A stretch of 64,000 nucleotides of DNA from Bifidobacterium asteroides (GTDB lineage Bacteria > Actinomycetota > Actinomycetes > Actinomycetales > Bifidobacteriaceae), in assembly GCF_003202695.1 (NCBI RefSeq), contig NZ_QGLL01000006.1, positions 310,001 to 374,000 on the forward strand. Reading direction: 5' to 3'. The position numbers were made by a program, and so were the translations under genes. The notes beneath the pieces are model-generated. The model saw only the letters and a program-made list of their open reading frames with translations. It did no database searches and had not been told where the DNA came from. This document shows, one piece after another, positions 31,773 through 46,180 of the stretch (positions within the stretch are counted from its first letter, which is position 1; every line of letters starts with the position of its first letter).

Positions 31773-32447
31773 TTACTGGTTCGTCATGTCGGCCTGATAC
31801 CAGAGAACGGCGATGTTGATTCGGTCCCTGACCTTGAGTTTTGTCAGTATGCGGCTGACGGTCTTTTTGACCGAATCAGGCTGCAGCTGGAGGCGCTCGG
31901 CAATCTCCGCATTCGTCAGGCCTTGGCTGACCAGCGACGCGACCTCAAGTTCGCGTTTGCCCAGTTGCGCGAATTTACGGCGAGCCTCAGATTCATCATT
32001 GGCTTTTGGACTTGGAACTCCTCTCCTGATCACTTCGGCTGTGATGCGCGGCGTGAGAATAGCATCGCCTGCATGTACGGCATGGATGGCTCTGTTCAGA
32101 TCGGCTGTCTTGACATCCTTGAGTAGGAACCCGGAGGCGCCCGCCCCTAGAGCTGTGAAGGCATAGTCGTCCTCGTCGTAGGTGGTCAGAATGAGAATGC
32201 TTATTTCAGGATGGAGCTTTTTGATACGGCTGGTAGCATCCAGCCCGTCCATGACAGGCATGCGCACATCCATCAGAATCACATCAGGCAAAGGCTGTTG
32301 ATTTTCGGCGGATGTGGCCAGTTTATCCAAAGCTTCTTGGCCGTTGGCCGCCTGCGCAATGACATGTAAGGTTGGATCCTTAGCGACCATGAGTGCCAGT
32401 CCCATGCGGGTCGGTCGCTGGTCGTCGACGATCATGACGCGGATCAT
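31773..32447 (-). CDS. NarL/LuxR-family response regulator
   Basis: 224 residues. Receiver domain 1-120 with acidic pocket IVDDQRPTR, phosphoacceptor Asp in DVILMDVRMPVMDGL (about residue 58), Thr in ILTTYDEDDY and Lys in FLLKDVKT. C-terminal LuxR-type HTH: LGKRELEVASLVSQGLTNAE followed by IAERLQLQPDSVKKTVSRI. Start overlaps the histidine kinase stop (ATGA), so the two are made together. It presumably controls the ABC transporter genes at the head of the same operon; the 18-bp palindrome at 36549 is the obvious candidate site. Confidence 0.93.
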   Translation of the reverse strand: MIRVMIVDDQRPTRMGLALMVAKDPTLHVIAQAANGQEALDKLATSAENQQPLPDVILMDVRMPVMDGLDATSRIKKLHPEISILILTTYDEDDYAFTALGAGASGFLLKDVKTADLNRAIHAVHAGDAILTPRITAEVIRRGVPSPKANDESEARRKFAQLGKRELEVASLVSQGLTNAEIAERLQLQPDSVKKTVSRILTKLKVRDRINIAVLWYQADMTNQ

Positions 32448-33724
32448 GCGTTCTCCTTCATACCTGTATTGTTAGCTGCCATTGTGGCTAGCGAGGGTAT
32501 GTGGGCCTGCAAGGTCCAACCATCAGAACCAGGATCCGAATGGAAGCTGCCACCATGAGCTTGCACCTCGGCTCTTAACCTGGCAAGACCTGTACCGCTG
32601 CTACTGGTATTGTCGGCTTCGTTATTCAAGATTCGTCCATCATCGCGAACGGTGATATCTATGTCGCCCCGGCTGTTGTGATCCCAGGAGACCACAATAC
32701 GGTTGACCTCCTGTCCGTGGCGGAGGGCGTTGGTAATCGCCTCCCTGGTGATGGTGAAAGCCAGGTCGGCCTGTTCGGAATCCTGTGGCCGACGACCCGT
32801 TTCCGTCAGGGCAGTGCTGATGCCGGCTTGACGGACGTGACCGAGAATGGGTTTGATGTCATCCCAGCCATGCCTCTCCCCTGTGGCCGGCTGTGGGTCG
32901 TTTTTCGGATCTGTCTCTGATTGCAAGGCTTTGACAGCTGTTCGGGTGTCCTCCAGTCCTTGCCGTGCCAGGTCATTAATCACCGATATAGCCTCATCAA
33001 TTTCCGGCTTTCCACTGGCATGATCCAGTCCCTCGGATAAGGCGATGATGGCGGTCAAGTCGTGACCCACGCTGTCATGCAGTTGGGCGGCAACCCTGGA
33101 CTGATGCATGGCCTGGTCCCGCTCATGGGCCAGAGTTAGAGCATGTGAGCGCTCCTCCTCCAATGCCTGCTCTGACATGCGTGACTGCCTTACAGAGCGT
33201 GAGAGGAAGGCGACTGTCAGGCAGAGGGCGAAAGTCAATCCAGTCGGATACAGAAGGTCAGTGAAGTGGACATCATGATGCCAATTGGCAGAGAGTACGA
33301 TGCTGAACAGGCCTAGAATGGCGGAACTACCCAGCCCAGCTGTCAATGATGTCACGCTCTTGGCTTCTACCGCGCAGGCGTAGATGCTGACAATCCAGGG
33401 AATGACCAGGTAGGTGCATCCCGAGCCATAGATTGCGGCAGTCAGGGCAAGCAGGCCACTGACCACCTGCAGGGTCGCCATAGGATATAGACGGCGCAGG
33501 CATAGGGTGACAAGTGCGATGAAAATAATGACCACAAACAGAGGCAAGCCCCAGCTGGCAGACTTCATGACCTGGTAGAGTGTCTGGTTGGCGCTGCTTG
33601 GGGCAAGGATCAGCCTGGTCAGCATCCCTGTCTCGTAGAGGGCGCAGAAAAAGACTGCCACGAAGGTCATATATGGCCGGTTCCACAACTGAATCCAACC
33701 TTGAGTCTTCTTGCCTGCTCTCAT
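32444..33724 (-). CDS. Sensor histidine kinase, HisKA_3 family
   Basis: 426 residues. N-terminal half has about six transmembrane segments and little extracytoplasmic sequence, as in intramembrane-sensing kinases paired with peptide-antibiotic transporters. HisKA_3 dimerisation region with the phosphorylated His in RVAAQLHDSVGHDLTAIIAL; HATPase region with REAITNALRHG (N box), DDGRI and SSGTGLARLRAEV (G boxes). I chose ATG 33724 because GGAAGAGG lies 8 bases upstream; a GTG at 33775 has none. Its job is probably to sense a peptide or transporter state and phosphorylate the regulator at 31773. Confidence 0.92.
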   Translation of the reverse strand: MRAGKKTQGWIQLWNRPYMTFVAVFFCALYETGMLTRLILAPSSANQTLYQVMKSASWGLPLFVVIIFIALVTLCLRRLYPMATLQVVSGLLALTAAIYGSGCTYLVIPWIVSIYACAVEAKSVTSLTAGLGSSAILGLFSIVLSANWHHDVHFTDLLYPTGLTFALCLTVAFLSRSVRQSRMSEQALEEERSHALTLAHERDQAMHQSRVAAQLHDSVGHDLTAIIALSEGLDHASGKPEIDEAISVINDLARQGLEDTRTAVKALQSETDPKNDPQPATGERHGWDDIKPILGHVRQAGISTALTETGRRPQDSEQADLAFTITREAITNALRHGQEVNRIVVSWDHNSRGDIDITVRDDGRILNNEADNTSSSGTGLARLRAEVQAHGGSFHSDPGSDGWTLQAHIPSLATMAANNTGMKENA

Positions 33725-33832
33725 CGGTGAGCCTCTTCCTGATAACTGCTGGTATTCCATTATGCTGTCAGACACTGAGATGTGCGGCCTGGCAAGTGCG
33801 TTACCCTCTCTTTATTGACTCTGCGCTTAAGA

Positions 33833-34633
33833 TCAGATGGCTCTGCGAGCCTGGTGCCGGAATATAAGGAGGCTGATCAGCACCCAGAGGATTGCCACCA
33901 TGCACGAGCTTGCCATAGAGGTCGTGGATGCGATATTGCCCATGTCACGGGCTGCGGATGCAGTGGTGATCAAGGCCAGCGGATACGGCAGCGCCAAGGC
34001 AGGTGCGGCAACCGACAGCACACAGCCTCCCAGGGTGAGCAGAAACATGATGCTCATAGTCGAGGCGAAGGATTCGGCTCTGGCGGCTATGGCCTGGGTC
34101 AGAGTCATAATGGCCCACACTGCCAACGTCATTGGTATGCCACGCATAAGATAGGGACCGAGTTCCGCTGGGTCAAAGCCTCCTACCAGAACGCCCACGA
34201 GTATGAATTCGGATTCGAAAATGGCGACGGTAAGGAGGGATGCCAGCAGTCCGTGCAGCATCTTCCCGATTATGGCAGTCCCGATCATGCCGGAGGCATT
34301 AAGGCGCTGCCAGTTGCGTCCCTTGTGCTCGTTGGCTCCAACCTGGGCTGCAAAGGCTGCGACCAGGACTGGTATGAAGACCATACTTGGCAGAAGGATC
34401 GCCTGCCCCCAGACCGCAGCCCAGGTCACTCCTTGAGTCTGGAAGTCCGGTCTGTAGCTCTGATACTGGTCCCAACCGTTGAAGATTCCTATGGCGTCGA
34501 AGAGCATGGTGGCCAGCCAGTACCAGAGATTGCCGGCCTTGTGAATCTCCCATTTGAAGGCGGCGGCGATCGATGGCTTGTGGCGATGCATCGGGGTGAT
34601 GGTTATAGCGTTTGAAGGGTATTGCCTGTTCAT
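33833..34633 (-). CDS. ABC-2 type permease, peptide-antibiotic resistance type (second subunit)
   Basis: 266 residues, about six transmembrane helices. FKWEIHKAGNLWYWLATMLFDAI at the start and AVWGQAILLPSMVFIPVLVA fit the LanE/LanG-type permeases of lantibiotic immunity or bacitracin transporters. Its start overlaps the stop of the other permease gene by 4 bases. Ends 108 bases before the histidine kinase start, the only sizeable gap in the operon. Confidence 0.82.
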   Translation of the reverse strand: MNRQYPSNAITITPMHRHKPSIAAAFKWEIHKAGNLWYWLATMLFDAIGIFNGWDQYQSYRPDFQTQGVTWAAVWGQAILLPSMVFIPVLVAAFAAQVGANEHKGRNWQRLNASGMIGTAIIGKMLHGLLASLLTVAIFESEFILVGVLVGGFDPAELGPYLMRGIPMTLAVWAIMTLTQAIAARAESFASTMSIMFLLTLGGCVLSVAAPALALPYPLALITTASAARDMGNIASTTSMASSCMVAILWVLISLLIFRHQARRAI

Positions 34634-35481
34634 CGGCCTGACTCCTTGACCTTGATGATGAATGCTGATATTCCCGACCAGATAATGCAGACCAGAAGGC
34701 TAGTCAGGACTTTTGGCCAGGGATTGGCGACCAAGGTCATTCTGGCAAAACCATCAGAGCTGGCTGAAAATAGGAACGGGTTGGCCGCGGAACTGATCCC
34801 GGCTGGGAAGAACCAGCCCAGAGCCGGCATATTCATCGGGCCCAGTCCAGTCCCGATCAGACCGGCTATCACACCCAGACCCAGGCCTATGGCCTGTCTT
34901 TCGATAGTCAGGGAGAGGGCGAGTTGTATGGCCGTGACAGCCATGGATGAGAAGCAAGCAATCAGTGCCGGAAGGAGTATGTATTCGGCCAGACTGCCAT
35001 CGAGATGGAATCCTTGTGCTGAAGCTGCCAGCGGTACCCACGTCAGAGGAATTACGAAACATAGCGTAATCACACTCCCAGCAACTATGAGCTTGGTAAG
35101 AAACCTCTCAGTCGCATCCTGTCCTAGGGAGCGCCATTTGAGATCCATGCGCTCGCTGCTCTCCATGACGGCAAGTCGGCTGGTCAGCAGAGCTGCAAGG
35201 ATGGGTGCAAGCAGGCCAACAGTTTGGAATATCTCACCTTGTGCAAGGGCTACGGTACGAGTGGCGGGGTTCGAAGATTCAGCTCGTTTCATGAATGCCA
35301 AGCCCGACCATGACGAAACCAGAACAATCATGCCCAAGGCCATCCACCAAAATGAGGAGCCTTTCAACTTGCGAAGCTCCATCGAAAGCAGAACAAGCAG
35401 CCTTCCTGGATGGGATGAGCGTGGCGGCTTTCCCAATCGAAATTCTTCGGGCCGCATGGAGAATGATTCGACAGAGCTCAT
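34630..35481 (-). CDS. ABC-2 type permease, peptide-antibiotic resistance type (first subunit)
   Basis: 283 residues, about six transmembrane helices, beginning with a cytoplasmic stretch LLVLLSMELRKLKGSSFWWMAL that is typical of BcrB/LanE-like permeases. TSRLAVMESSERMDLKWRSLG is the usual cytoplasmic loop that contacts the ATPase. It is distantly related to the neighbouring permease. Start overlaps the ATPase stop by 4 bases and stop overlaps the next start by 4 bases, so three transporter genes are translationally coupled. Confidence 0.82.
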   Translation of the reverse strand: MSSVESFSMRPEEFRLGKPPRSSHPGRLLVLLSMELRKLKGSSFWWMALGMIVLVSSWSGLAFMKRAESSNPATRTVALAQGEIFQTVGLLAPILAALLTSRLAVMESSERMDLKWRSLGQDATERFLTKLIVAGSVITLCFVIPLTWVPLAASAQGFHLDGSLAEYILLPALIACFSSMAVTAIQLALSLTIERQAIGLGLGVIAGLIGTGLGPMNMPALGWFFPAGISSAANPFLFSASSDGFARMTLVANPWPKVLTSLLVCIIWSGISAFIIKVKESGR

Positions 35482-36467
35482 CGTGCGCTCCTCTGTTTAT
35501 GACCGAACGGCTTCACAGGACCCTGCGCTACATGGTTCTGCGGGTTTTCCACGAGTTCGAGGAAGGCCTCTTCCAAGCTCTTGCGTTCGGAAGCGACACG
35601 GTATACCTGCAGACCATGCGATACCAGCCGAGTCACCAGCGCCCCGATTTGCGGATCTGGCATCCCGGGAATGCGCAGGGTTGCACTCTTCCGGATATAT
35701 TCGTGTTGAATGCCTTGAGTTTCGAGCATCTCTGCCACGAGCCCAGGGTCGGACACCCGTAGATCGATATGGCCCTCTTCGCGCAGATTTTCCAATGTTC
35801 CCTGGTAGAGCAGGTGACCATCGGCAATGATGCCAACCATCGGAGCCATCTTTTCAACCTCGGACAGGATATGGCTGCTGATGATGACGGTGACTCCCTC
35901 GGAAGCGGCCAAGTCCATGATCATTTGTCGCACCTCGACCACAGCTTCTGCATCTAAGCCATTGGTGGGCTCATCCAGGAGCAGGAGTTCCGGCTGCGAG
36001 ATCAGCGCCACGGCGATGCCCAGCCGCTGCTTCATCCCCAGAGAGTAGGCGCCCGCCTTCCTTTTCTCGTATCCACGCAATCCAACCTTGGTTAGCACTT
36101 CTGAGGCAGCTGAAACTGGCAGACCCAGATAATCGGCTACCATGCGGCAGTTATCGAGACCCGACAGGCCTGGATAGAAGCTGGGTCCTTCAATCATGGA
36201 GCCCACACGGCCCGGCTGGATCGTAGTCTTCTTTCCGACCTGCTGTCCTAGCAGCCACATGCTTCCGGCAGTCGGTTTTGTCAATCCCAGAAGGAGCTTC
36301 ATGGTGGTCGATTTTCCGGCTCCGTTTGGTCCCAACAGTCCATAGACCCCGCCAGCCGGCACTTGTAGATTCAGCCCATCCACGGCTTTGAAAGCTCCAT
36401 AGGCCTTGACCAGCCCCTGTGTAACCACAGCCAGTTGCGGGTCATTGTTTCCGTCCGTATATGTCAT
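35478..36467 (-). CDS. ABC transporter ATPase, BcrA/LanF-like
   Basis: 329 residues. Walker A GPNGAGKST (about 45-53), Q-loop region GRVGSMIEGPSFYPGLSG, signature YSLGMKQRLGIAVAL, Walker B LLLLDEPTNGLD, H-loop VIISSHILSEV, plus a 90-residue C-terminal extension. This is the ATPase type of bacitracin and lantibiotic self-protection transporters, with the GMKQR signature characteristic of that group. Head gene of the ATPase-permease-permease-kinase-regulator operon; GGAAGGGGAGG precedes the ATG. An 18-bp palindrome lies about 82-100 bases upstream. Confidence 0.9.
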   Translation of the reverse strand: MTYTDGNNDPQLAVVTQGLVKAYGAFKAVDGLNLQVPAGGVYGLLGPNGAGKSTTMKLLLGLTKPTAGSMWLLGQQVGKKTTIQPGRVGSMIEGPSFYPGLSGLDNCRMVADYLGLPVSAASEVLTKVGLRGYEKRKAGAYSLGMKQRLGIAVALISQPELLLLDEPTNGLDAEAVVEVRQMIMDLAASEGVTVIISSHILSEVEKMAPMVGIIADGHLLYQGTLENLREEGHIDLRVSDPGLVAEMLETQGIQHEYIRKSATLRIPGMPDPQIGALVTRLVSHGLQVYRVASERKSLEEAFLELVENPQNHVAQGPVKPFGHKQRSAR

Positions 36468-36803: not shown

Positions 36804-37607
36804 ATGACACGCGAAAGTAAATTCAGTGGCGAGGGCAGCAGGAGCGGCTTGAGCATCGGTCAGATGTCTGAGCTTACTGGGGTCAGTCGGAGAATGTTGC
36901 GTCACTGGGAGGAGGAAGGACTGATCTCCCCCTTTCGCGATCAGTCGAATTACCGGCATTATCTGCAGGATGACGTCGCACAGTTGGAGCGAATTGTGAC
37001 CTATAGGGAGATGGGATTCAATGCCCGACAAATCAAGGCATTGCTCAATTGCAAGGCACCGCTGGCCTTGGATGAGTTGCGAGGTCAGCGTTCGCGAATT
37101 GAGGAGAAAATTCAGCTTCTTAGGAAAGCTGCGGATCGTTTGGACCGGCTCATAACCCTTGCTGACGGGAAGTCAGGTAATGATTTAGCCGCTACGAAGA
37201 CCGGTCAGGAGGACCAGTACTTTTCGGAAGCATACGAACGCTGGGGTACTAGCAGGCAGTGGCTTGAGTATGCGGAGCGAAAGGCCATGTGCTCCGAGCA
37301 AGAGCAGAAAAAGGACACGGTCCGGCTCAAAAATGTAGAAAGTGAGCTTGCACAAGCCAAACGAAAGGGTTTGGCTCCGACATCAGATAAGGTTCTCGAA
37401 CTGATTGACGAGCATCGGCAGGCTTTGTCATGGTTCCATGTGACGCCGTCCATGCACGTCATTCTGGGGCGGATGTATGTGGCCGACCCGCGTTTCAGGC
37501 GCCATTACGAACAGCTGGAACCTGGATTGGCGCAATGGATGCTGGTTGCAATCGAAACCGCAGCACGTGCAAGCGGGATAGATCCAGCCACCGCCAGATG
37601 GGAGTGA
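36804..37607 (+). CDS. MerR-family regulator with TipAS antibiotic-binding domain
   Basis: 267 residues. N-terminal MerR winged helix (SIGQMSELTGVSRRMLRHWE and YRHYLQDDVAQLERIVTYRE), dimerisation coiled coil to about 120, then a TipAS domain (about 140-260: FSEAYERWGTSRQWLEYAER, IDEHRQALSWFHVTPSMHVI, GRMYVADPRFRRHYE). TipAS-type proteins bind thiopeptides and other peptide drugs covalently or tightly and activate their own promoters. A short polar N-terminal extension precedes the HTH. Divergent from the peptide-resistance operon and followed by a VOC protein. Confidence 0.9.
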   Translation: MTRESKFSGEGSRSGLSIGQMSELTGVSRRMLRHWEEEGLISPFRDQSNYRHYLQDDVAQLERIVTYREMGFNARQIKALLNCKAPLALDELRGQRSRIEEKIQLLRKAADRLDRLITLADGKSGNDLAATKTGQEDQYFSEAYERWGTSRQWLEYAERKAMCSEQEQKKDTVRLKNVESELAQAKRKGLAPTSDKVLELIDEHRQALSWFHVTPSMHVILGRMYVADPRFRRHYEQLEPGLAQWMLVAIETAARASGIDPATARWE

Positions 37608-37691: not shown

Positions 37692-38222
37692 ATGCACAAC
37701 CGTGACCAGTCCAAAGCGGCTGCTTATACAGGAGCAGCAATAATCAGTCCCGTGCCGGAGCCCGGAAAGAATGCGGAACCGCCGGAGCCTTATAGGGGCA
37801 TCTACCTCATGCCCATGTTCATGTGCCTGTATAGCCACAATCTAGGAGAATCTGAAGCTTTCTGGACGCAGGGATTGGGTTTCATCAATTTATACACCAT
37901 GCCGGGCATGATGATTCACTTGCGGCGCTGGGCCTTTCAGGATGTGCTGATTCGTAAGAGTGGTTCCAATACTAGAAGCTCTGATACGGATATGGAGTCC
38001 ATAGGAAGCCTGAGCGTAGCAGTCGCGGAAAAGCAGATAGGCAAGATTGTGGATGCATGTGAGCGCCTCCGTCCGGGCTCCACTTCAGCTCCAATACGTA
38101 AGCCGTGGAATTCGCTTGAAGCCAGGATTCACACTCCGGAAGGCCTCGTCCTTACCCTCACAGCTGCCTTGGCTGTCGACAAGGAACAGACCGAAGTTTA
38201 TCTAAACATGCACGGTCAATGA
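37692..38222 (+). CDS. VOC-superfamily protein (glyoxalase/bleomycin-resistance fold)
   Basis: 176 residues. FMCLYSHNLGESEAFWTQGLGFINLY is a typical first betaalphabeta module, and ARIHTPEGLVLTLTAALAV ends the second. Metal ligands of glyoxalase I are not clearly conserved, so a binding or sequestering role is as likely as catalysis. Gene position after a TipAS regulator suggests that it handles the same compound. ATG 37692 is preferred to a TTG at 37647; the ribosome-binding site (AAGAAACGAG) is weak. Confidence 0.72.
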   Translation: MHNRDQSKAAAYTGAAIISPVPEPGKNAEPPEPYRGIYLMPMFMCLYSHNLGESEAFWTQGLGFINLYTMPGMMIHLRRWAFQDVLIRKSGSNTRSSDTDMESIGSLSVAVAEKQIGKIVDACERLRPGSTSAPIRKPWNSLEARIHTPEGLVLTLTAALAVDKEQTEVYLNMHGQ

Positions 38223-38229
38223 GCAAAGA

Positions 38230-38387
38230 TCAAGCACCTCCCCTACTCGTGATTTGATTGCAAGAGCAACCATTAGATGTCCCGAACAGCCGGCGGGTCA
38301 AAACATATGGCTCTACATCTTTGAGCAGATAGTTGTTGGCTCCGGCCTCGATGGCCGGCAGAACATAGCGGTAAGAAGGAGCATTCC
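38230..38387 (-). pseudogene. Receiver-domain remnant of a response regulator
   Basis: One minus-strand frame gives SYRYVLPAIEAGANNYLLKD followed by a decayed tail and TGA. VLPAIEAGAxxYLLKD is the alpha4-beta5 segment of NarL-type receivers with the conserved lysine. The phosphoacceptor part and the DNA-binding domain are missing. A second two-component regulator once stood here. Confidence 0.65.
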
Positions 38388-38521
38388 AACAGCGCTGTCA
38401 GTCAGTTGAATGGCACGGCTGTAACAGAATGTAGATACACAATCTGGCAGGTTGCTCTGGACCCGGTAAGATCAGTTAGGCTACCTGGAGAGGACAAGCC
38501 ACAAAGCTCTGTAAAAATGGT

Positions 38522-38926
38522 TTATTTTGGGACGTCACAGACCGAGAAGGCGAAACTCATCAGAGTTCCTACTGACTTACTCTTATCTGATTTTAGTGTT
38601 TCAATGCTTTTGAGATGCTCATTGTCTTGTACCTGGTTCAGTGCGTACTGTTCACCATCTAAGGTGGTAAAGCGGAGGATGGGGTCTCCCTGCTTGCTGA
38701 GCTTGCATGACACGGTGCCCTCATCAACTTTAAGAGGCCAGGTGTGACCTAGATCTTCTTTCGAAATTGTTTGCGGGTTGCTGGTAGCTGCGACTTTATT
38801 GCTTCCATCAGTGGAATACTCTTCAGGGTGCTTTATGCCATCAGTGCAGCCGACGACCCCCACTGTCAGCATAATTGTGGCGCATATAAGGAAAAGGGTT
38901 CTGAGGCTCTGCTTGATTCGTTTCAT
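38522..38926 (-). CDS. Putative lipoprotein
   Basis: 134 residues with a lipoprotein signal peptide: basic MKRIKQSLR, hydrophobic TLFLICATIMLTVGVV and lipobox VVGC with Cys27. The mature part of about 107 residues is polar (KEDLGHTWPLKVDEGTVSCK, GDPILRFTTLDGEQYALNQV) and contains two more cysteines. DUF2511-like exported proteins have this length and a similar GTVxCK pattern; this is a weak guess. Last gene of the ECF sigma/ABC cluster, 35 bases after the ATPase. It should be modified by Lgt encoded at 6978. Confidence 0.75.
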   Translation of the reverse strand: MKRIKQSLRTLFLICATIMLTVGVVGCTDGIKHPEEYSTDGSNKVAATSNPQTISKEDLGHTWPLKVDEGTVSCKLSKQGDPILRFTTLDGEQYALNQVQDNEHLKSIETLKSDKSKSVGTLMSFAFSVCDVPK

Positions 38927-38961
38927 AATTATCGACGTTCTTTCATACTTGGAGACGGTTT

Positions 38962-39822
38962 CTAGCGCTCGCTGGCCAAAGCCATATATCCGTCCTCAAG
39001 GTTGGGCGCAGTTTCTACAGAGCCCGCGGGCGGTGTATCGGTAACTATGCGGTATCTGGTCCCCTGTGGGGTGGGTTCCGCGTTGATGATTGTGGCATTT
39101 TCCGGTGGGGCCGCGATAGGGGGCGTGATCCAGGTATGACCGGCAGCTTCATGGATCAACCCCTCAGTCGGCCCGTCATACTGTTTGCGTCCGAAACGTA
39201 ATACGCATACCCAGGGGCAGGTTTGTGCAACGTCATCGAGTATATGGGTGGAGAGGATGACAGATCGATCCTGCCCCAGCTGGGCAAGGAGCGTGCGGAA
39301 CCGCATGCGCTCTTCGGGATCCAACCCCGCTGTGGGCTCGTCGACTACCAGCAGCTGGGGGTCGCCCATAAGTGCCTGTGCGATGCCAACCCTGCGCCTC
39401 ATACCCCCGGATAGCCCCCGGATAGGTAAGTTCATTACATCTTTTAATCCCACCTGTTCCAGGAGGGTATGCGTCTGCTCCTGCCGCATGTGTTTGTTGT
39501 CAATCATTTTCAAGATGCCGATATAGTCAAGGAATTCAAGCGGGGACAGGTTGTCGTAGGGGGTGATGTGCTGTGGCAGATAACCCAGGTGCCGTTTTAG
39601 ATTTCGCCTGTTGGCCGGCGAAGACAGGTCTTGTCCATCAATAAAAACTTTACCTGTAGTTGGTTTGATTATTCCAGTGAGAATGCGCATGAGGGTTGTT
39701 TTGCCTGCACCATTTGGCCCTATGAGTCCTATCATGCCCTGTGGAAGATCAACGGTCAGATCGTTTAAAGCGGCCGGTCTCCCCCGAAAATCCTTGGTTA
39801 GATGGTCAATCGAGATAAACAT
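38962..39822 (-). CDS. ABC transporter ATPase (ECF-sigma cluster)
   Basis: 286 residues. Walker A GPNGAGKTT, Q-loop LGYLPQHITPY, signature LSGGMRRRVGIAQAL, Walker B LLVVDEPTAGLD, H-loop VILSTHILDDV, followed by a 70-residue C-terminal extension. This resembles ATPases of ABC-2 transporters (CcmA type). I chose ATG 39822, preceded by AAAGGA at 9 bases, over a TTG at 39840. It presumably powers the two or three membrane proteins encoded just upstream. Confidence 0.9.
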   Translation of the reverse strand: MFISIDHLTKDFRGRPAALNDLTVDLPQGMIGLIGPNGAGKTTLMRILTGIIKPTTGKVFIDGQDLSSPANRRNLKRHLGYLPQHITPYDNLSPLEFLDYIGILKMIDNKHMRQEQTHTLLEQVGLKDVMNLPIRGLSGGMRRRVGIAQALMGDPQLLVVDEPTAGLDPEERMRFRTLLAQLGQDRSVILSTHILDDVAQTCPWVCVLRFGRKQYDGPTEGLIHEAAGHTWITPPIAAPPENATIINAEPTPQGTRYRIVTDTPPAGSVETAPNLEDGYMALASER

Positions 39823-39853
39823 GTGGGTAATTCCTTTCAAAGTCGGTAGATAG

Positions 39854-40612
39854 TCAGACCCGAACTTTTATGTGGTTGGAGGCCATATTTGCACCAGTGA
39901 AAAGGAGGAAGATAATACACGCCTGCCAGAGTAGGGATATGACTCCTGATTGGATGGTAAAGGGGCCGTTCGCCGGTATGTACATAGGATTGGTATGAAA
40001 CCATCCCTGCGCAATGGGATCGCCAATGACTGCCAGGGGGCCGCCATTGAGCGTTGGGAGTGGTAAGAGGGGGGTATAGAAAGCCAGCCAGGCCCATACC
40101 AGGACGGCAAGAATTCGGGCTACGATCGTGGGCAACAGGGCTCCCAGCAGGGCGGATATCCCCATAGCAATCAGTATTGATGGTGAGAGTATGACAAGTG
40201 CTACTGCCAGGGCCACCAGTATTGCCTTACCGTTGCCGTTAATGGCTTGGCGGACCGCGATCAATACAAGGAAAAGCAGGGAAGATGATATGCAGATGAC
40301 CCAGGCTCCCAAGACATGAGCTGAGCGGATGACGGCCATCGGCAAAGGGGAGGTGGATTCAAGTTCGTCCATACCTGTTCGCCTGCCTGCAGTCATAAGG
40401 TCGCTAAAAGATGCTGCGTATGCCAACGGGGTGAACATAGCAAGAACCTGTCCGGTAAAGACAAGACCCTGTATGTTGCTGAATCCAGGTGACATAGGAG
40501 AAGCATAGGCCAAAAAGAGGGCGAAGAGCGCCAGCGGTATGCTGGCCATCCACAAGGCTTTGCGCCGATAAAACATCAGTAGCGTGATGCGTACAAGGCT
40601 CAGTATCCTCAT
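39854..40612 (-). CDS. Membrane protein, ABC permease-like (ECF-sigma cluster)
   Basis: 252 residues, six hydrophobic segments, starting with a basic cytoplasmic stretch LVRITLLMFYRRKALWMASI, as ABC-2 permeases do. AASFSDLMTAGRRTGMDELE is a cytoplasmic loop that likely touches the ATPase. Start overlaps the stop of the upstream gene (ATGA). No closer family recognised. Confidence 0.72.
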   Translation of the reverse strand: MRILSLVRITLLMFYRRKALWMASIPLALFALFLAYASPMSPGFSNIQGLVFTGQVLAMFTPLAYAASFSDLMTAGRRTGMDELESTSPLPMAVIRSAHVLGAWVICISSSLLFLVLIAVRQAINGNGKAILVALAVALVILSPSILIAMGISALLGALLPTIVARILAVLVWAWLAFYTPLLPLPTLNGGPLAVIGDPIAQGWFHTNPMYIPANGPFTIQSGVISLLWQACIIFLLFTGANMASNHIKVRV

Positions 40613-41226
40613 AGGGCTGCCACCTTTACAACATTGCGCTCCGCATCACCGCACATGTTCCATCCGAAGATTGCGCCTGCCGCTGCAATAAACAATGGAA
40701 TGAGTCGTTGCCGGACCGGATCGGTGATGTATGGATCCCATACAAAGCATAAAAACAGCCAAATAGCTATGGGAGCCAGCGACGATGTTGGCATAGACGT
40801 GGTGAGTACGGCTATAAGGAACACTAGACAGTTGACAATGAATATACTGCCAACCGGGGAAATGATGCTCACCCATCCCATGTCACGTGGCCAAAGTCGC
40901 ATCATATGCAAGCCGATAAAAAGAAGGCCTACGGCAGTAAGAAATGCTCCGGTAATGATAAGCATCCTGGTCACTTGAACCTTCCGCCATCCAGTTGGAG
41001 TTGACTCAGCAAGTTCAATGATTGGGTCACCATTGAGCACAAAAGCTGTAGATAGGCCAGCAGCAATTACAGGCACCTGAGTGAGAACCATCATAAGTGG
41101 CCGTATGCGGCCCGGTGACCAAATGCCCTCCAGTAAGAAGCCCACAAAAAGAATGCCTGCAGTCAGTATAAACGGCAGCAATACCAGCCTATAAAGCCTC
41201 TTGAGCTGTATACCTACGAAAGCCAA
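40609..41226 (-). CDS. Membrane protein of the ECF-sigma cluster
   Basis: 205 residues, six hydrophobic segments (LLPFILTAGILFVGFLLEGI, FLIAVLTTSMPTSSLAPIAI, LIPLFIAAAGAIFGWNM). TTG start at 41226 with GGAAGGTGG upstream. It is translationally coupled to the permease that follows. Its role is unknown; it may be part of the transporter's membrane domain. Confidence 0.65.
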   Translation of the reverse strand: MAFVGIQLKRLYRLVLLPFILTAGILFVGFLLEGIWSPGRIRPLMMVLTQVPVIAAGLSTAFVLNGDPIIELAESTPTGWRKVQVTRMLIITGAFLTAVGLLFIGLHMMRLWPRDMGWVSIISPVGSIFIVNCLVFLIAVLTTSMPTSSLAPIAIWLFLCFVWDPYITDPVRQRLIPLFIAAAGAIFGWNMCGDAERNVVKVAAL

Positions 41227-41333
41227 CCTCGTCCACCTTCCTCATATCTGGTTTTGGCCTCAGCTGCCGCCAGACATTGCTCGCTACTCGTTCCGTCTGC
41301 TTAGTTAGTAGCGAGAGAGGACGAAAAGGTTCA

Positions 41334-42179
41334 TTAATTTTTATCTCCACCGGCGAGTTGAGTATGCCAGGCAAGAGGGGCTGTAAGGATAACAGCAGAT
41401 AGGAGTCCCGCTGTCAGTAGGATGGTCCCTGCCCAGGCTGCGGTTGTAGTGGGCACCGAATTGACCCATGCCGGTAGGAAAAATGATGACCGAAAGTTCT
41501 GCAAAGTTCTCATTAGTGGTGCAAGTACCCCTAGGAGCAGTGCAATCCAAGAGCATTGCCATATGCATAACAGGGCCACGATATTCGCCAGGAGTGTTAT
41601 GGGGGCTATGGTTTGGGCAATAACTGGCAGGGGCCTTATTCCAGGGTTGATTGCAGTGACAATCAATAAGGCTGCTCCCCCGACGACAATATTGGAGATA
41701 AAGGCCAGCAATAGCCTAGAAGCTACTACAACTTGAGGTCCCAGGGGCATACTGAGCATTAATTCACGATCATCTTTAATGGAAAAGACCAGGATCATGG
41801 TCAGTGCCATGTTGAGCATGAGCATATTTGAAAAGATATGCATACCGAGACTGCCATACCGTGCACCTTGCATTACGTTGCTAATTAAAACCGAGCACGC
41901 TGCTATCGCAATTTCCACCAGTAAGATATATCGCGGTATGAGGCGGAATTGGGCCCGAACAAGCGGGCCGCAGGAACGTATTTGACGCATGAATGGTATT
42001 GGCTGATCTGTCGCCAAGGACGGCTTCTGGTGGATGGCCTTCATTACGCTAGTAAAAGCCGGAACTGCCGGCTGGGCATTCTGCTCTTTTTCCCTAAGCG
42101 CCTCTTGAACTTCACCCCGGTATTCTTCGGTGACTGGGCCTGTGCTATCTGGGCTTGTGCTCTTATATCGGTCTGTCAT
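41334..42179 (-). CDS. Membrane protein with cytoplasmic N-terminus, candidate anti-sigma factor or permease
   Basis: 281 residues. The first 75 or so are soluble and charged (EEYRGEVQEALREKEQNAQP, FTSVMKAIHQKPSLATDQPI); then about six transmembrane helices. It starts 14 bases after the ECF sigma gene, the position normally held by an anti-sigma factor, and the soluble N-terminus could bind sigma, but there is no zinc-finger HxxxCxxC motif. The hydrophobic part also resembles an ABC permease (DDRELMLSMPLGPQVVVASR). GAAGG precedes ATG 42179; the open frame extends upstream into the sigma gene without support. Confidence 0.65.
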   Translation of the reverse strand: MTDRYKSTSPDSTGPVTEEYRGEVQEALREKEQNAQPAVPAFTSVMKAIHQKPSLATDQPIPFMRQIRSCGPLVRAQFRLIPRYILLVEIAIAACSVLISNVMQGARYGSLGMHIFSNMLMLNMALTMILVFSIKDDRELMLSMPLGPQVVVASRLLLAFISNIVVGGAALLIVTAINPGIRPLPVIAQTIAPITLLANIVALLCIWQCSWIALLLGVLAPLMRTLQNFRSSFFLPAWVNSVPTTTAAWAGTILLTAGLLSAVILTAPLAWHTQLAGGDKN

Positions 42180-42193
42180 AATCACGCCTTCAA

Positions 42194-42790
42194 TTATCTC
42201 TGGCTCGGCACTTTTTGGGTTTTGACAGGAGCGAGGTCGGTCAACTGCGGGCGCAGGATCTGCCTTGCCCGGGCAATGCGAGATTTCACAGTCCCAACTG
42301 GAACGTCGAGCAGGGAGGCTATTTCCGGGTAGGGTAACTCGTGGAGCCAAGCCAGGGTTACCGTGTATGCCATTTCTGCTGGGAGTGCATCAATCCTTTG
42401 CCGTATTATTTCCATCGTCAGGTCCTTATTGACCAGTTCTACAGGCTCCAGCTGGTCATCGGTTATCGAGTCAAGTTCCACCTGATCCATTTGTTCAGGT
42501 GGTTTCGGTTTGCGACGTTTCATATAGATTTGCCGCCGGGCAATGCTGAGTATCCAGGTGAGCACCTTGCTGTCTGCGCGGAAGGTTTTTGAGGAACGCC
42601 AGCAGCCCAGCCATGTGTCAGCAAAAACTTCACTGGCATCCTCGTCGTCGGATATTCGCAAGGAAATAAAGGCTTGGACGGTATGAGCATACTTATTGTA
42701 AAGCGCTTCAAAGGCCGATTCATTTCCGTCAGCCACCATCCTGATCAGCCTTATATCATCAGCATCTGGATCAATGCGAGATCGTTTCAC
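42194..42790 (-). CDS. ECF-family RNA polymerase sigma factor
   Basis: 198 residues. Region 2: FEALYNKYAHTVQAFISLRI, DASEVFADTWLGCWRS, SKVLTWILSIARRQIYMKRR (region 2.3-2.4). Region 4: LPAEMAYTVTLAWLHELPYP followed by EIASLLDVPVGTVKSRIARA. No extra domains. GTG start with GAAGGAC upstream. Head gene of a cluster with a candidate anti-sigma membrane protein, two membrane proteins, an ABC ATPase and a lipoprotein; it probably controls that cluster, possibly through the direct repeats at 42852. Confidence 0.9.
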   Translation of the reverse strand: MKRSRIDPDADDIRLIRMVADGNESAFEALYNKYAHTVQAFISLRISDDEDASEVFADTWLGCWRSSKTFRADSKVLTWILSIARRQIYMKRRKPKPPEQMDQVELDSITDDQLEPVELVNKDLTMEIIRQRIDALPAEMAYTVTLAWLHELPYPEIASLLDVPVGTVKSRIARARQILRPQLTDLAPVKTQKVPSQR

Positions 42791-42851
42791 TGATGATGTC
42801 CTTCTCTGTTTTGTCTACATCCTAGATATCGTCTTGCTTACGGCTATGCAA

Positions 42852-42868
42852 GCGGTTATCGCGGTTAT
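42852..42868. promoter_or_regulatory. Direct repeat GCGGTTAT upstream of the sigma gene
   Basis: GCGGTTAT occurs twice, 9 bases apart (42852-42859 and 42861-42868). On the coding strand of the sigma gene this reads ATAACCGC twice, about 60-80 bases before the start; AACC resembles ECF -35 elements, so this may be the autoregulated promoter. Confidence 0.4.
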
Positions 42869-42998
42869 GCTCCATTGCTATTACGAATATGTTGGGATGT
42901 CGCTTTTAGGGTCGCCCATCCTGTGAATCCCGTCGCAAGACAACTCATTAACGTCTGTGTATCAAGCAACCTCTTATCAGGTGTAGGTGTCCTAGTGC

Positions 42999-43532
42999 TT
43001 ATTTGCGCCCCTTCAAGTACTTCCGTATCTTCTTTAGGGCCCAGTCGTAATGGCTGGAGGTCGAAGAGATGAAGGCAGAGCCCAAGGTAGAGTTTCCTGT
43101 CCATGGGAGGGTGCCCTTGGTGAATAGCTGTTCGTTGGTGAACGATTGCGCCAGGGCCATGACCTTCTTATGGGATTCGATAAACAGGTTCAAGGCCTGA
43201 TCGTAGGTGGTGTCATCATGCTCGTCACGCAGCTTCACATTCATTTCGCCGTAATTACGCCAGTTGTAGCCGTCAGGAAGAAAGTCGTGGGCCCTGCCCT
43301 GCTGGTTGTCCTCCACCCAGTTCAACAGCAGCTGATGCCACTCATAGAGATGAACGAGCACATCCTTGATGTTCCTGTCGCGTGCCCAATGGGCCCCCTT
43401 CTCCTTGCTCAGATCGAAGGAAAAGCGGCCATTGCGTTCTTCAGGTGTCAGCGGCTCAAGCAGCGCCACGAGTTTGTCGAAGCCATCATCAGCCGCCTTG
43501 ATGAGTTCTTCCTTGGTGGTAGGTCGCGCCAT
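42999..43532 (-). CDS. ClbS/DfsB-family four-helix-bundle protein
   Basis: 177 residues. ARPTTKEELIKAADDGFDKL, RNIKDVLVHLYEWHQLLLNW and SHKKVMALAQSFTNEQLF match the DinB-like ClbS/DfsB family. ClbS of colibactin producers is a hydrolase that opens the cyclopropane warhead and protects DNA; the wider family is of unknown function. GGAGG precedes ATG 43532; an ATG at 43562 lacks support. Stands alone between the sigma cluster and the exporter. A self-protection role is inference from the family only. Confidence 0.8.
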   Translation of the reverse strand: MARPTTKEELIKAADDGFDKLVALLEPLTPEERNGRFSFDLSKEKGAHWARDRNIKDVLVHLYEWHQLLLNWVEDNQQGRAHDFLPDGYNWRNYGEMNVKLRDEHDDTTYDQALNLFIESHKKVMALAQSFTNEQLFTKGTLPWTGNSTLGSAFISSTSSHYDWALKKIRKYLKGRK

Positions 43533-43849
43533 GACGGTCCTCCATTTGTCTGTTGTTGACAAGATTTGACTGGTCCATCGTCACCTGTCTCGGTTTGTCA
43601 TCGACTGTACCCTATATGAGCCTTGCAAATGCTCGCGTGTAGGAAATCGTCGCATACTTCAGTGTTTACCTGTATTGGCGGGAAACCATCAAGTGCTCAC
43701 AGTTGCACCTACCTAACAATTAAATCCATCAAGCCAAGCTCTGCATATACCCGACTTAATTTATTTAACAAGAGGCATGAGGGAATGGCAGATGTCGGCA
43801 GGCTTTGCTTGGCTCAAATATGTATTCGGGTGCATACAGCAGGACTTTA
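43533..43849. other. Intergenic region without a supported gene
   Basis: 317 bases between the ClbS-like gene and the end of the FtsX-type permease. It must hold the promoter of the minus-strand ClbS-like gene; a TTGCAA and TACAGT pair is present on that strand but the spacing (13) is poor. Nothing else is seen. Confidence 0.5.
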
Positions 43850-45274
43850 TTACTCGCCTATGGCATGCGATATGACGCTGACAGAGTTCTCGAATCTGGT
43901 GGTCAGAGCTTGGATTCCTGTGGCTGCGGCACCAAGCACGGATGCGATGAGCACCACTACGATCCAAGCGCCCCATTGCACGCTCATCTGTGCTTTGCCC
44001 ATGAAGCGCGAGAGCATGAAGGTAAGGGATGAGGTGCAGAGCAAGGTGATGACCAGGGAGAACAGTGTGCTGGTAATCATAGTGATGATGCCGTCAAGTG
44101 CGCCCAATACTCTGAGCTGGCCGATTCCAGCACCTGATACGTAGGTCAGCGCCAGATCAAGTCCTCTGCCTTTGGAAGTGATCAAGGTGCCTGCAATTGC
44201 ACCTGTTATCGCGATGATCAGTGGCGGTCCAGTGAGCGCCAAGAGACTCGCAAACATGTCTGCGGTCGCCGGAATGGTGCTGTCTGGTGTGGGGGGCAAA
44301 GCGACTTGCATGGTGGTGATCATCGTGCTTAACCCTCCGCTGACGGTCATCAGCAATGACAGACCTGCAGTCATCGGGATGATCGCCGCTCCCTGGCGCT
44401 GTATGCTGCCGACAGCCTGCTGGCCTGCCAGCCTCCAGGTTCTGGATGGCAACGCCACAATACGCGTCCATATCGCCGTGAAGCCGGGCAGGAGGTATGG
44501 CGCGAAAGCCGCCAGCGAGAATATCAGGAGGAACATGCCGCCCATGGCGAAGGCAAGAAATACCGTCATCTGATCTGGAACGGCATCGCTGCTCATCTGA
44601 CTGGCACGAGGGTTAGTTGCAAGTGTAAAAGCTGGAATCAGCAGCATGCAGCCCGCGCCAATCAAGCATATGGTCCCCAGAAGGAAGCGGAAGACGCCTA
44701 TCCGCTTTGGCGGATTTTGGGATTGCCTGAGTGCTTCCATTGGTCGTATTTTCGAGAGCGAACGGATAGTCAACAGGGTGCTTATGAAGATGGGCGCAGC
44801 GCTGAAAGCGAGGCCTTTGCCCAGCGAATTGAACAGGTGGCTGCTGGCATACGTCAAATGAAAATCGAGTGGATTTGTCACCATGGCGAAGATCAAGGGC
44901 GTAATCACTGGCAGCAAAAGGCAGGTGGCTGCAATAGACAGGATGAATAATCCTATGACTATCAGCAGATTCCAGGCCAGCAGTTGCCAAGGCAGAGCGC
45001 CTTGTAAAACCATGAGCGCCAGTTGATGCCGTCGTTGATTCAGTGCTGAGTTCATGACCCATAGCAGCACAGCTACGGTGATGATCACGCTGAATGCTAA
45101 GGCGGGACCAGTGTATGAGGATCCAAGTTCCTGCTCCGGGCCCTGATAGTCCTGATCAATGATTGCGGCGACCGCAATGAGGGAACAGATGACAGTCTGG
45201 GATACGACCATGGCCAGCAAGACGGCGCTCCAGACCTTGGGCGCTGCTTTGAGTTCGGACAGAGCGCCTCTCAT
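43850..45274 (-). CDS. FtsX-like permease of an ABC exporter
   Basis: 474 residues, with about ten transmembrane segments in two FtsX-like halves (NQRRHQLALMVLQGALPWQL in the first; DLALTYVSGAGIGQLRVLGA in the second). No large extracytoplasmic MacB domain. The start at 45274 overlaps the ATPase stop; an upstream frame to 45343 has no support. With the LolD-like ATPase it forms a transporter of the type seen in antimicrobial-peptide resistance or lipoprotein/peptide release. Substrate unknown. No kinase or regulator gene adjoins it. Confidence 0.85.
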   Translation of the reverse strand: MRGALSELKAAPKVWSAVLLAMVVSQTVICSLIAVAAIIDQDYQGPEQELGSSYTGPALAFSVIITVAVLLWVMNSALNQRRHQLALMVLQGALPWQLLAWNLLIVIGLFILSIAATCLLLPVITPLIFAMVTNPLDFHLTYASSHLFNSLGKGLAFSAAPIFISTLLTIRSLSKIRPMEALRQSQNPPKRIGVFRFLLGTICLIGAGCMLLIPAFTLATNPRASQMSSDAVPDQMTVFLAFAMGGMFLLIFSLAAFAPYLLPGFTAIWTRIVALPSRTWRLAGQQAVGSIQRQGAAIIPMTAGLSLLMTVSGGLSTMITTMQVALPPTPDSTIPATADMFASLLALTGPPLIIAITGAIAGTLITSKGRGLDLALTYVSGAGIGQLRVLGALDGIITMITSTLFSLVITLLCTSSLTFMLSRFMGKAQMSVQWGAWIVVVLIASVLGAAATGIQALTTRFENSVSVISHAIGE

Positions 45275-46002
45275 GCCATGGGCGCTTTCGCAGAGAATGA
45301 CTGGCTGATGCGGCCATCGCGCACGGCAAAAAGCCGATCGCACTGGCCTGCCACCTCATTGTTATGCGTCACCAAAACGATGGTTTTCTTTTCGTGGTTG
45401 GCAAGTTCCTTCAGCACCGATATGACCTTTTCTCCGGATTCCTGATCCAGGGCGCCAGTTGGCTCGTCCGCGAATACCACATCTGCGTCGGATAACAGGA
45501 CCCGGGCCAGGGCAACACGTTGCTGCTCGCCGCCAGACAGCAGGGTGACGCTTTTCTTTTTCTGATCGATCAGGCCAAAGTACTTCAAGAGAGAATCCGC
45601 CGTCTTTCTGGGGAAGCGGGTTCCACGAAGGGTGAATGGCAAAGCCAGATTCTGCTCGACTGTCATGCTGGTGATCAGGTTGTAGGACTGGAATACGAAG
45701 CCTAGATGCTGGCGTCTGAACTTGGTCATGGACGACAGCCCCAGATGGGTTATGTCCTTGCCCAGCAGAAGCACAGTGCCGCTAGAGGCCTTCTCCAGCC
45801 CAGCAAGGCAGTACAGCAGCGTCGATTTGCCGCTGCCTGACGGCCCTATGATGCCGGTCATCTCCCCCGGATAGGCAGTGAATGCGATGTCATTGAGAAT
45901 GGTCAGTGAATCGCCGCGGCGCGGGGAGACCACCATGGACAGCCCCGTAGCTTCAATTGTCGGTGTCGGGCCTCTGCTCACGCTCACGCTGGGGTCATTC
46001 AT
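45271..46002 (-). CDS. LolD/MacB-type ABC transporter ATPase
   Basis: 243 residues. Walker A GPSGSGKST, Q-loop FVFQSYNLITSM, signature LLSGGEQQRVALARVL, Walker B VVFADEPTGALD, H-loop VLVTHNNEV. The FADEPTGALD and VFQSYNL patterns are typical of the LolD/MacB/BceA group, which partners FtsX-like permeases such as the gene right after. I chose ATG 46002 (AAGGGAAAG upstream) over a start at 46053. Upstream are three phased 10-bp repeats. Confidence 0.92.
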   Translation of the reverse strand: MNDPSVSVSRGPTPTIEATGLSMVVSPRRGDSLTILNDIAFTAYPGEMTGIIGPSGSGKSTLLYCLAGLEKASSGTVLLLGKDITHLGLSSMTKFRRQHLGFVFQSYNLITSMTVEQNLALPFTLRGTRFPRKTADSLLKYFGLIDQKKKSVTLLSGGEQQRVALARVLLSDADVVFADEPTGALDQESGEKVISVLKELANHEKKTIVLVTHNNEVAGQCDRLFAVRDGRISQSFSAKAPMA

Positions 46003-46180
46003 AGTTGCATCTTTCCCTTGGATGATCATCGACGACCTTCCAGACCGAGGCATCTACGCTCAGTAATGCTGATTCGCCTCGCAGATGTCATGTACCCTCG
46101 TTCGTCGCTTGACCCTGTATGACGGTCATCCTTGTCGTCAACAGTCAATTCCATTGATATCAGCGAAAGAAGGGATGAAA

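Follow-up and report, generated by a model that had tools for sequence, protein, structure and literature searches.

We analyzed a 64,000-nucleotide stretch of the Bifidobacterium asteroides genome (hereafter the window; positions are counted from its first letter) that carries, on the minus strand, a six-gene operon encoding, in this order, an extracytoplasmic function (ECF)-type sigma factor, three membrane proteins (TM1, TM2, and TM3), an ATP-binding cassette (ABC) ATPase, and a small lipoprotein. Comparison of this cassette with its relatives suggests, with a probability that we put at about 0.72, that it is a self-contained regulated transporter, in which the sigma factor would be held by TM1, released on a cue, and directed to a promoter, P2, located between the TM1 and TM2 genes.

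All six genes that the preliminary description had assigned to one minus-strand unit are present, and their order is conserved in relatives; such conservation across the mapped cassettes indicates that the arrangement is not due to chance. The genes for the sigma factor (42194..42790, GTG start, 198 amino acids), TM1 (41334..42179, 281 amino acids), TM2 (40609..41226), TM3 (39854..40612), the ATPase (38962..39822), and the lipoprotein (38522..38926) are separated by 14, 107, -4, 31, and 35 nucleotides, respectively, the 107-nucleotide gap falling between TM1 and TM2 and the 4-nucleotide overlap between TM2 and TM3. The G+C content over positions 38000-44000 is about 0.51, below that of most of the window. 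Outside the genus, the order sigma-TM1-TM2-TM3-ATPase recurs in two Bifidobacteriaceae genera, in five genera belonging to a second family of actinobacteria, and in three genomes of a third family (f19; loci L057, L080, and L081).

The sigma factor matches the Pfam domains Sigma70_r2 (E 9.1e-10) and Sigma70_r4_2 (E 1.8e-12), the full-length Sigma70_ECF model, and the TIGR02937 model for ECF sigma factors (75.1 bits, cut-off 42.9); its Pfam matches to individual sigma-70 regions are limited to r2 and r4/r4_2. Consisting of the sigma-2 and sigma-4 regions only, with neither region 1.1 nor sigma-3, this protein has the domain composition of an ECF sigma factor. It is 42-52% identical to its counterparts in the second family, depending on the alignment.

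TM1 combines a cytosolic N-terminus of about 80 residues with a transporter-like membrane domain; by hydropathy, the first hydrophobic segment begins at residue 85, and five segments are recognized with the cut-off used. The earlier observation of a membrane protein without a zinc-finger motif in the anti-sigma position holds for the window, where TM1 gives no zinc-finger match in Pfam and lacks the Hx3Cx2C signature of class I anti-sigma factors. None of TM1, TM2, and TM3 of the window has a meaningful family match in Pfam or NCBIfam, and the TM1 profile produced a single match among solved structures, at E 0.48.

The evidence for an anti-sigma function comes from the third family. Locus L057, which was reached through a weak match to the TM1 profile (E 0.006), contains the same genes in the same order, and its TM1 homolog carries a zf-HC2 domain at the N-terminus (31.8 bits, E 1.5e-7, Pfam cut-off 22.2). 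The same domain opens the TM1 proteins of L080 and L081 (36.8 and 37.5 bits; E 4e-9 and 2.5e-9; both above the cut-off), the Hx3Cx2C signature is present in all three N-terminal domains, and a joint profile of these domains matches the solved structures of ChrR (2q1z, E 3.2e-4) and RsiW (5wuq, E 1.9e-3). With hhalign, the TM1 proteins of the three loci align with the window TM1 family at E 5.8e-12 over 230 columns, corresponding to window residues 30-264. The same method yielded E 0.0049 for TM1 against the cassette TM2 and E 0.18 against TM3, so the similarity between the TM1 homologs does not simply reflect hydrophobic composition. The alignment starts at a partly conserved N-terminal region of the window TM1, which faces the segment that follows the zinc finger. 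Because the homologs in three genomes start with a zinc-finger anti-sigma domain, occupy the same gene position, and share the same membrane domain, TM1 is probably an anti-sigma factor. To that extent, the homologs from another family support the suggestion in the preliminary description that a transporter-like membrane protein may hold the sigma factor.

The search that covered this family comprised 39 genomes of the class of L057, all from f19; 13 of these gave matches, and the full-length TM1 relatives were those of L057, L080, and L081 only. Nine of the other ten matches lie in the N-terminal part, as would be expected of other zinc-finger anti-sigma proteins, and one (in genome G274) lies in the membrane part. 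A plasmid search with the L057 TM1 returned no match.

In alignment A7, the zinc part is missing from TM1 of both Bifidobacteriaceae and the second family. The window TM1 is 26% identical to TM1 of the second family, and residues L28, E32, and P40 of its N-terminus are nonetheless found in all nine zinc-less rows of A7, along with F42 in seven rows and R29 and V39 in five; these six residues were invariant in the first, 9-row alignment and are partly kept in the wider set. Zinc-less domains are common among class I anti-sigma factors, the zinc signature being absent from about 44% of them (PMC7406223, section 6, part 1). We infer that the short, zinc-less N-terminus of the Bifidobacterium TM1 still binds the sigma factor.

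The remaining genes of the cassette encode the apparent transporter. The ATPase, with a strong match to ABC_tran (E 7.2e-33) and a match to the TIGR01188 drrA model (E 3.8e-46) that at 157.8 bits stays below the cut-off of 312.45, belongs to the DrrA/GldA type, a DrrA-type ATPase being one feature of ABC-2 type exporters. Its identity to the ATPases of the second family and of the other Bifidobacteriaceae genera is 64-70%, compared with 49-50% for those of the zinc-finger loci. TM2 and TM3 are permease-like membrane proteins; TM2 has six hydrophobic segments by hydropathy and is conserved in the cassettes, and the L057 homolog of TM3 shows a sub-threshold match to ABC2_membrane_3 (E 0.0076). 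A similar motif is found in all three membrane proteins, RELMLSMPLGPQVVVASRL in TM1, IIELAESTPTGWRKVQVTRM in TM2, and GMDELESTSPLPMAVIRSAHV in TM3. In TM1 and TM2, it sits between the second and third hydrophobic segments; the second segment of TM3 falls under the cut-off used, so that the same position is only probable there. Such placement between segments resembles the coupling-helix region of ABC-2 permeases.

A conserved promoter-like motif co-occurs with the sigma factor and the transporter genes. ECF sigma factors typically recognize bipartite promoters with an AAC-type -35 element, often including their own. The DNA 5' of the sigma gene in relatives contains TGAACC, 15 bases, and GCTACNNA. 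In a scan that allowed spacers of 14-17 and covered the window and 29 further loci, L098 not among them, TGAACC-N15-GCTACNWA with the spacer of 15 and no more than a single mismatch turned up in 29 of the 30, the sole locus devoid of it being L097, which has a different architecture. In the window, the exact match TGAACC-N15-GCTACTAA occupies positions 41305..41333 on the minus strand, its first base directly following the stop codon of TM1; this is the likely sigma-dependent promoter P2. The motif takes this position, between TM1 and TM2, in 11 named loci of the B. asteroides group, in five loci of two other Bifidobacteriaceae genera, and in two of the nine second-family loci as well. It precedes the sigma gene in all nine second-family loci (two with CGAACC), in the same five Bifidobacteriaceae loci, and in the three zinc-finger loci (with TGAACA); 5' of the window sigma gene, no motif was detected at up to two mismatches.

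The spacing was examined in 19 chosen cassettes, a set that left out the near-identical loci of the B. asteroides group as well as L052 and L053. All 19 have the motif with spacer 15 (at most one mismatch over 11 positions; 14 exact), whereas other spacers from 8 to 23 were matched in at most four cassettes, and about 300 permuted motifs in at most five (mean 0.41). The spacer sequences themselves look unrelated between families. On this comparative evidence, it is very likely that the sigma factor drives P2. A scan for sigma-70 promoters and terminators found 4 and 4, versus 5.0 and 4.0 in shuffled sequences.

The motif is rare in the genomes that carry the cassette. Among 27 genomes of the genus, each of the 15 TM1 carriers has one site at up to one mismatch, an exact one in the gap that separates TM1 from TM2. 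Exact sites are absent from all 12 non-carriers, four of which contain a single one-mismatch site. With the G+C content taken as 0.58, base composition predicts 0.009 exact sites per genome. In nine second-family genomes, a strict pattern gave seven sites, six of them at the cassette. The genomes of 14 relatives contain 19 exact sites, 17 in the cassette and two just upstream of it, and 28 sites with one mismatch, four in the cassette and 24 elsewhere, compared with 22 sites for the reversed control. The two upstream sites (L051 4656-4684 and L052 5282-5310, both in genus g244) precede a gene for a VanZ-like protein directly upstream of the cassette. The L052 protein matches Pfam VanZ at E 2.9e-23 and is near-identical to that of L051; their matches to NCBIfam vanZ models are far below the cut-offs.

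Given that the exact sites in these 14 genomes all lie in the cassette or before the adjoining VanZ-like gene, the apparent target of the sigma factor is the cassette that encodes it and, in the window, the transporter half only; the VanZ-like gene is a likely second target in genus g244. The motif occurs once in the window genome when up to one mismatch is allowed, which suggests a regulon made up of a single transporter transcription unit and does not support the general envelope-stress system envisaged originally, a response that would be marked by induction under envelope stress and by a regulon of envelope genes. As far as the motif indicates, the genes for the sigma factor and the putative anti-sigma factor of the B. 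asteroides group would lie outside their own regulon. VanZ-like proteins are associated with glycopeptide resistance, and this neighbor provides a hint that the cue could be a compound active on the cell wall or the membrane.

We propose the following model. TM1, which has a transporter-like membrane part and not just a membrane anchor, would keep the sigma factor inactive at the membrane. On sensing a cue, most likely a membrane-active compound or lipid that is handled, and presumably exported, by the transporter, TM1 would free the sigma factor, which would then recognize the motif and transcribe from P2, raising the levels of TM2, TM3, the ATPase, and the lipoprotein. The newly made TM2, TM3, and ATPase might remove the cue or assemble with TM1, either of which would lead to recapture of the sigma factor and close a feedback loop.

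Several observations weigh against this model. The sigma factor and the motif are linked by co-occurrence only, and the 15 carriers are relatives and hence not 15 independent events. The genome-wide counts cover sites with zero or one mismatch, and in the 27 genomes of the genus the reversed control produced 70 sites at up to one mismatch, versus 19 for the motif; one-mismatch sites alone thus carry no weight, and the count suggests that the base-composition estimate is too low. In seven of the nine second-family loci and in the three zinc-finger loci, the motif is found before the sigma gene only, so a regulon restricted to the transporter appears to be a local arrangement. The N-terminus of the Bifidobacterium TM1 is without a match to any family model and lacks, besides the zinc motif, most of a class I anti-sigma domain. 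Of the six conserved residues, three are invariant among the zinc-less rows, and of these E32 alone recurs in the rows with a zinc finger. The signals that would identify TM1 as a permease-like subunit are weak: one of 12 TM1 homologs has a sub-threshold match to ABC2_membrane_5 (E 0.037), which together with that of the L057 TM3 makes up the matches to ABC2_membrane families, all sub-threshold, and the hhalign comparison of TM1 with TM2 gave E 0.002 with a probability of only 13.6%. We give even odds that TM1 physically joins the transporter.

The alternative that fares best, only a little short of an even chance, is a narrower version of the model and is compatible with its first half: TM1 would be an ordinary multi-pass anti-sigma sensor outside the transporter, which senses the cue or is cut by a protease, and the ABC transporter would be merely a target of the sigma factor. 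The anti-sigma domain on the homologs is sound and the ABC-2 signals in TM1 are weak, both in keeping with such a sensor, and regulated proteolysis of anti-sigma factors is described as the common mechanism (PMC8999054). TM1 is, however, a multi-pass protein with the conserved RELMLSMPLGPQVVVASRL between its second and third segments and a like motif in TM2 and probably TM3, and its gene stays with the transporter genes in the mapped cassettes, which fits a sensor apart from the transporter less well. It appears doubtful that the working state of the transporter, that is, its substrate or ATP cycle, rather than direct sensing of the cue by TM1 sets the release of the sigma factor; the homologs have the anti-sigma domain fused to the transporter-like membrane domain itself, and the ATPase and TM1 are encoded together in the mapped cassettes, but here, too, the weak signals for TM1 as a transporter subunit count against the idea. 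Least probable is a Bifidobacterium TM1 that lost its anti-sigma function with the zinc finger and is now a transporter subunit only, with the sigma factor controlled by its own transcription: the missing zinc motif and anti-sigma match, the partial retention of the N-terminal residues in the wider set, and the lack of a motif at up to two mismatches 5' of the window sigma gene are set against L28, E32, and P40 in all zinc-less rows despite the low identity of TM1, the hhalign match that begins in precisely that region, and the reported frequency of zinc-less class I domains (PMC7406223, in the section cited above).

Under the favored model of a sigma factor held by TM1, the cassette would be a small circuit of one sigma factor, one fusion of an anti-sigma factor with a transporter-like protein, and one promoter whose coordinates are defined. 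Should TM1 bind the sigma factor and also sit in the transporter, it would provide a direct physical link from a membrane pump to RNA polymerase, through which the bacterium would read the state of the pump directly into gene expression. The most far-reaching form of this idea, in which one membrane subunit of an Actinomycetota transporter family is itself the anti-sigma factor and the assembly or working state of the pump holds or frees a single-promoter sigma factor without a kinase, a protease, or a separate sensor, is offered tentatively and is, in our estimate, unlikely. The sigma-promoter pair, which has a 15-nucleotide spacer and, within the genus, a single site in each carrier genome, might also be of use as an orthogonal tool for gene expression.

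Several known systems share features with the cassette. The sigY operon of Bacillus subtilis (sigY-yxlC-yxlD-yxlE-yxlF-yxlG) combines an autoregulated ECF sigma factor, a membrane anti-sigma factor, and ABC transporter genes. The window cassette, with TM1 as its putative anti-sigma factor, is therefore not new in kind, and an operon that joins an ECF sigma factor to an ABC transporter has a precedent. The two differ in that YxlC is a small separate anti-sigma factor, whereas the presumed anti-sigma part in the window is fused to a permease-like protein. The window sigma factor does not belong to the SigY family, scoring 86.5 and 86.1 bits against an NF007216 cut-off of 194. BceAB-type transporters control histidine kinases, forming the BceAB-BceRS flux-sensing modules; these share with the window the idea of a transporter that controls its own expression, although they rely on a histidine kinase and a response regulator in place of a sigma factor with an anti-sigma part on a transporter-like protein. 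Class II (CnrY-like) anti-sigma factors consist of a short two-helix segment that wraps the sigma factor, and the N-terminus of the Bifidobacterium TM1 appears similar to such short zinc-less segments, by description only. ChrR and RsiW, which are class I and bind zinc, resemble the TM1 homologs of L057, L080, and L081 in the N-terminal domain with its Hx3Cx2C signature, but the homologs have this domain fused to a multi-pass transporter-like domain. In searches of the open literature, none of the listed titles and abstract beginnings describes a fusion between an anti-sigma factor and a subunit of an ABC transporter, which is weak evidence of absence. Group ECF257, represented by a protein from Kurthia massiliensis, is described in PMC8999054 as having ABC transporters nearby and no anti-sigma factor; it is similar to the window in the proximity of an ECF sigma factor to ABC transporter genes and is set apart, by that description, from a locus with a predicted fused anti-sigma factor. 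The expression and regulon of sigY are treated in PMC3498285.

The window sigma factor may already have been noticed. A survey of bifidobacteria names the carriers of a second RpoE-like gene, 36 strains of B. breve and B. longum and bee isolates, among them B. asteroides and B. indicum; it gives no known targets for this gene and suggests a link to superoxide dismutase (PMC9004370). The second RpoE-like gene of the bee isolates is likely the window sigma gene, in which case a target and a regulator are proposed for it here. It may well be that the group of the window sigma factor is already defined in the 2021 ECF classification. The same genome encodes another ECF-like sigma factor (G000:C6:133879-134397, the window being G000:C6:310001-374000), 23% identical to that of the window over the matched part.

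The cassette was found in part of the genomes searched. The survey across Bifidobacteriaceae suggested in the preliminary description identified TM2 in 20 of 121 genomes, namely the same 15 of the 27 genus genomes that encode TM1 and five from two other genera. The named relatives found, namely B. asteroides, B. polysaccharolyticum, B. apousia, B. mizhiense, B. mellis, B. choladohabitans, B. indicum, and others, place the window genome in the bee-associated B. asteroides group. In the second family, TM1 was found in nine of 99 genomes, representing five of 48 genera. Rubneribacter and Gordonibacter are the named members of this branch, to which they were assigned because the profile scores of L058-L060 are identical to those of L029-L031; L058-L060 were accordingly not counted again. 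Among 396 genomes drawn from the phylum, the first TM1 profile gave four matches and a broader one nine; the latter comprise the window genome, five cassettes, two loci of variant architecture (L097 and L098), which were not counted as cassettes, and one chance match (L099, in genome G127), rejected as a short match amid unrelated genes. TM2 of L057 escaped the window profile and was recognized by its BLAST similarity to TM2 of L084 and L085 (E 5.6e-4 and 3.1e-6). A tree of the sigma factor and ATPase built from 24 sequences showed a patchy pattern that does not settle the question of transfer, and horizontal movement of the cassette is possible.

Some loci depart from the common layout. In L080 and L081, the TM2-TM3 pair is doubled between TM1 and the ATPase. 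L097 (4188-6267) encodes a sigma factor, a TM1-like membrane protein whose short N-terminus contains cysteine, and, directly after it, an ABC ATPase, with no TGAACC motif; L098 has a similar pair of TM1-like protein and ATPase at a contig end. The sigma and TM1 frames of L053 (5820-7227) are shortened at the N-terminus, as if broken or misread in the assembly.

Direct repeats of GCGGTTAT upstream of the sigma gene, taken initially for the sigma-dependent promoter, do exist at 42852..42868, with units at 42852-42859 and 42861-42868. They differ from the conserved sigma motif, which is located between TM1 and TM2 instead, and were rejected as the sigma promoter given their absence from L027 and L028 and the lack of a match to the sigma motif, at up to two mismatches, 5' of the window sigma gene. 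Among 12 aligned B. asteroides-group loci, ten keep the repeats exactly or nearly so, L027 and L028 being the other two, and the genome has no second copy of the repeat pair and flank (24 positions, up to three mismatches). They are possibly part of a different promoter, that of the sigma gene itself.

The small lipoprotein has a weak match to DUF2511 (22.9 bits, cut-off 21) and, among the cassettes examined, occurs in those of Bifidobacteriaceae only. The set contains ten loci from Bifidobacteriaceae, all with the lipoprotein, and 14 others, all without it, and it was rejected as a core component of the cassette. In 11 aligned sequences, two cysteines are kept besides that of the lipobox.

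The genes on both sides of the cassette also deserve mention. Positions 31773-36467 contain genes that read as a response regulator and a histidine kinase, two permease-like genes, and an ABC ATPase (Pfam), in an arrangement resembling modules of the lantibiotic-protection type. A MerR-type regulator with a TipAS antibiotic-recognition domain (36804-37607; Pfam, E 3.2e-27) adjoins the cassette. Upstream of the sigma gene, on the same strand, lies another transporter pair (43850-46053), an ABC ATPase and a permease with a sub-threshold FtsX-like match (E 0.0012). The module at 31773-36467, the MerR/TipAS regulator, the cassette, and the FtsX-like pair constitute a cluster of likely antimicrobial-response modules.

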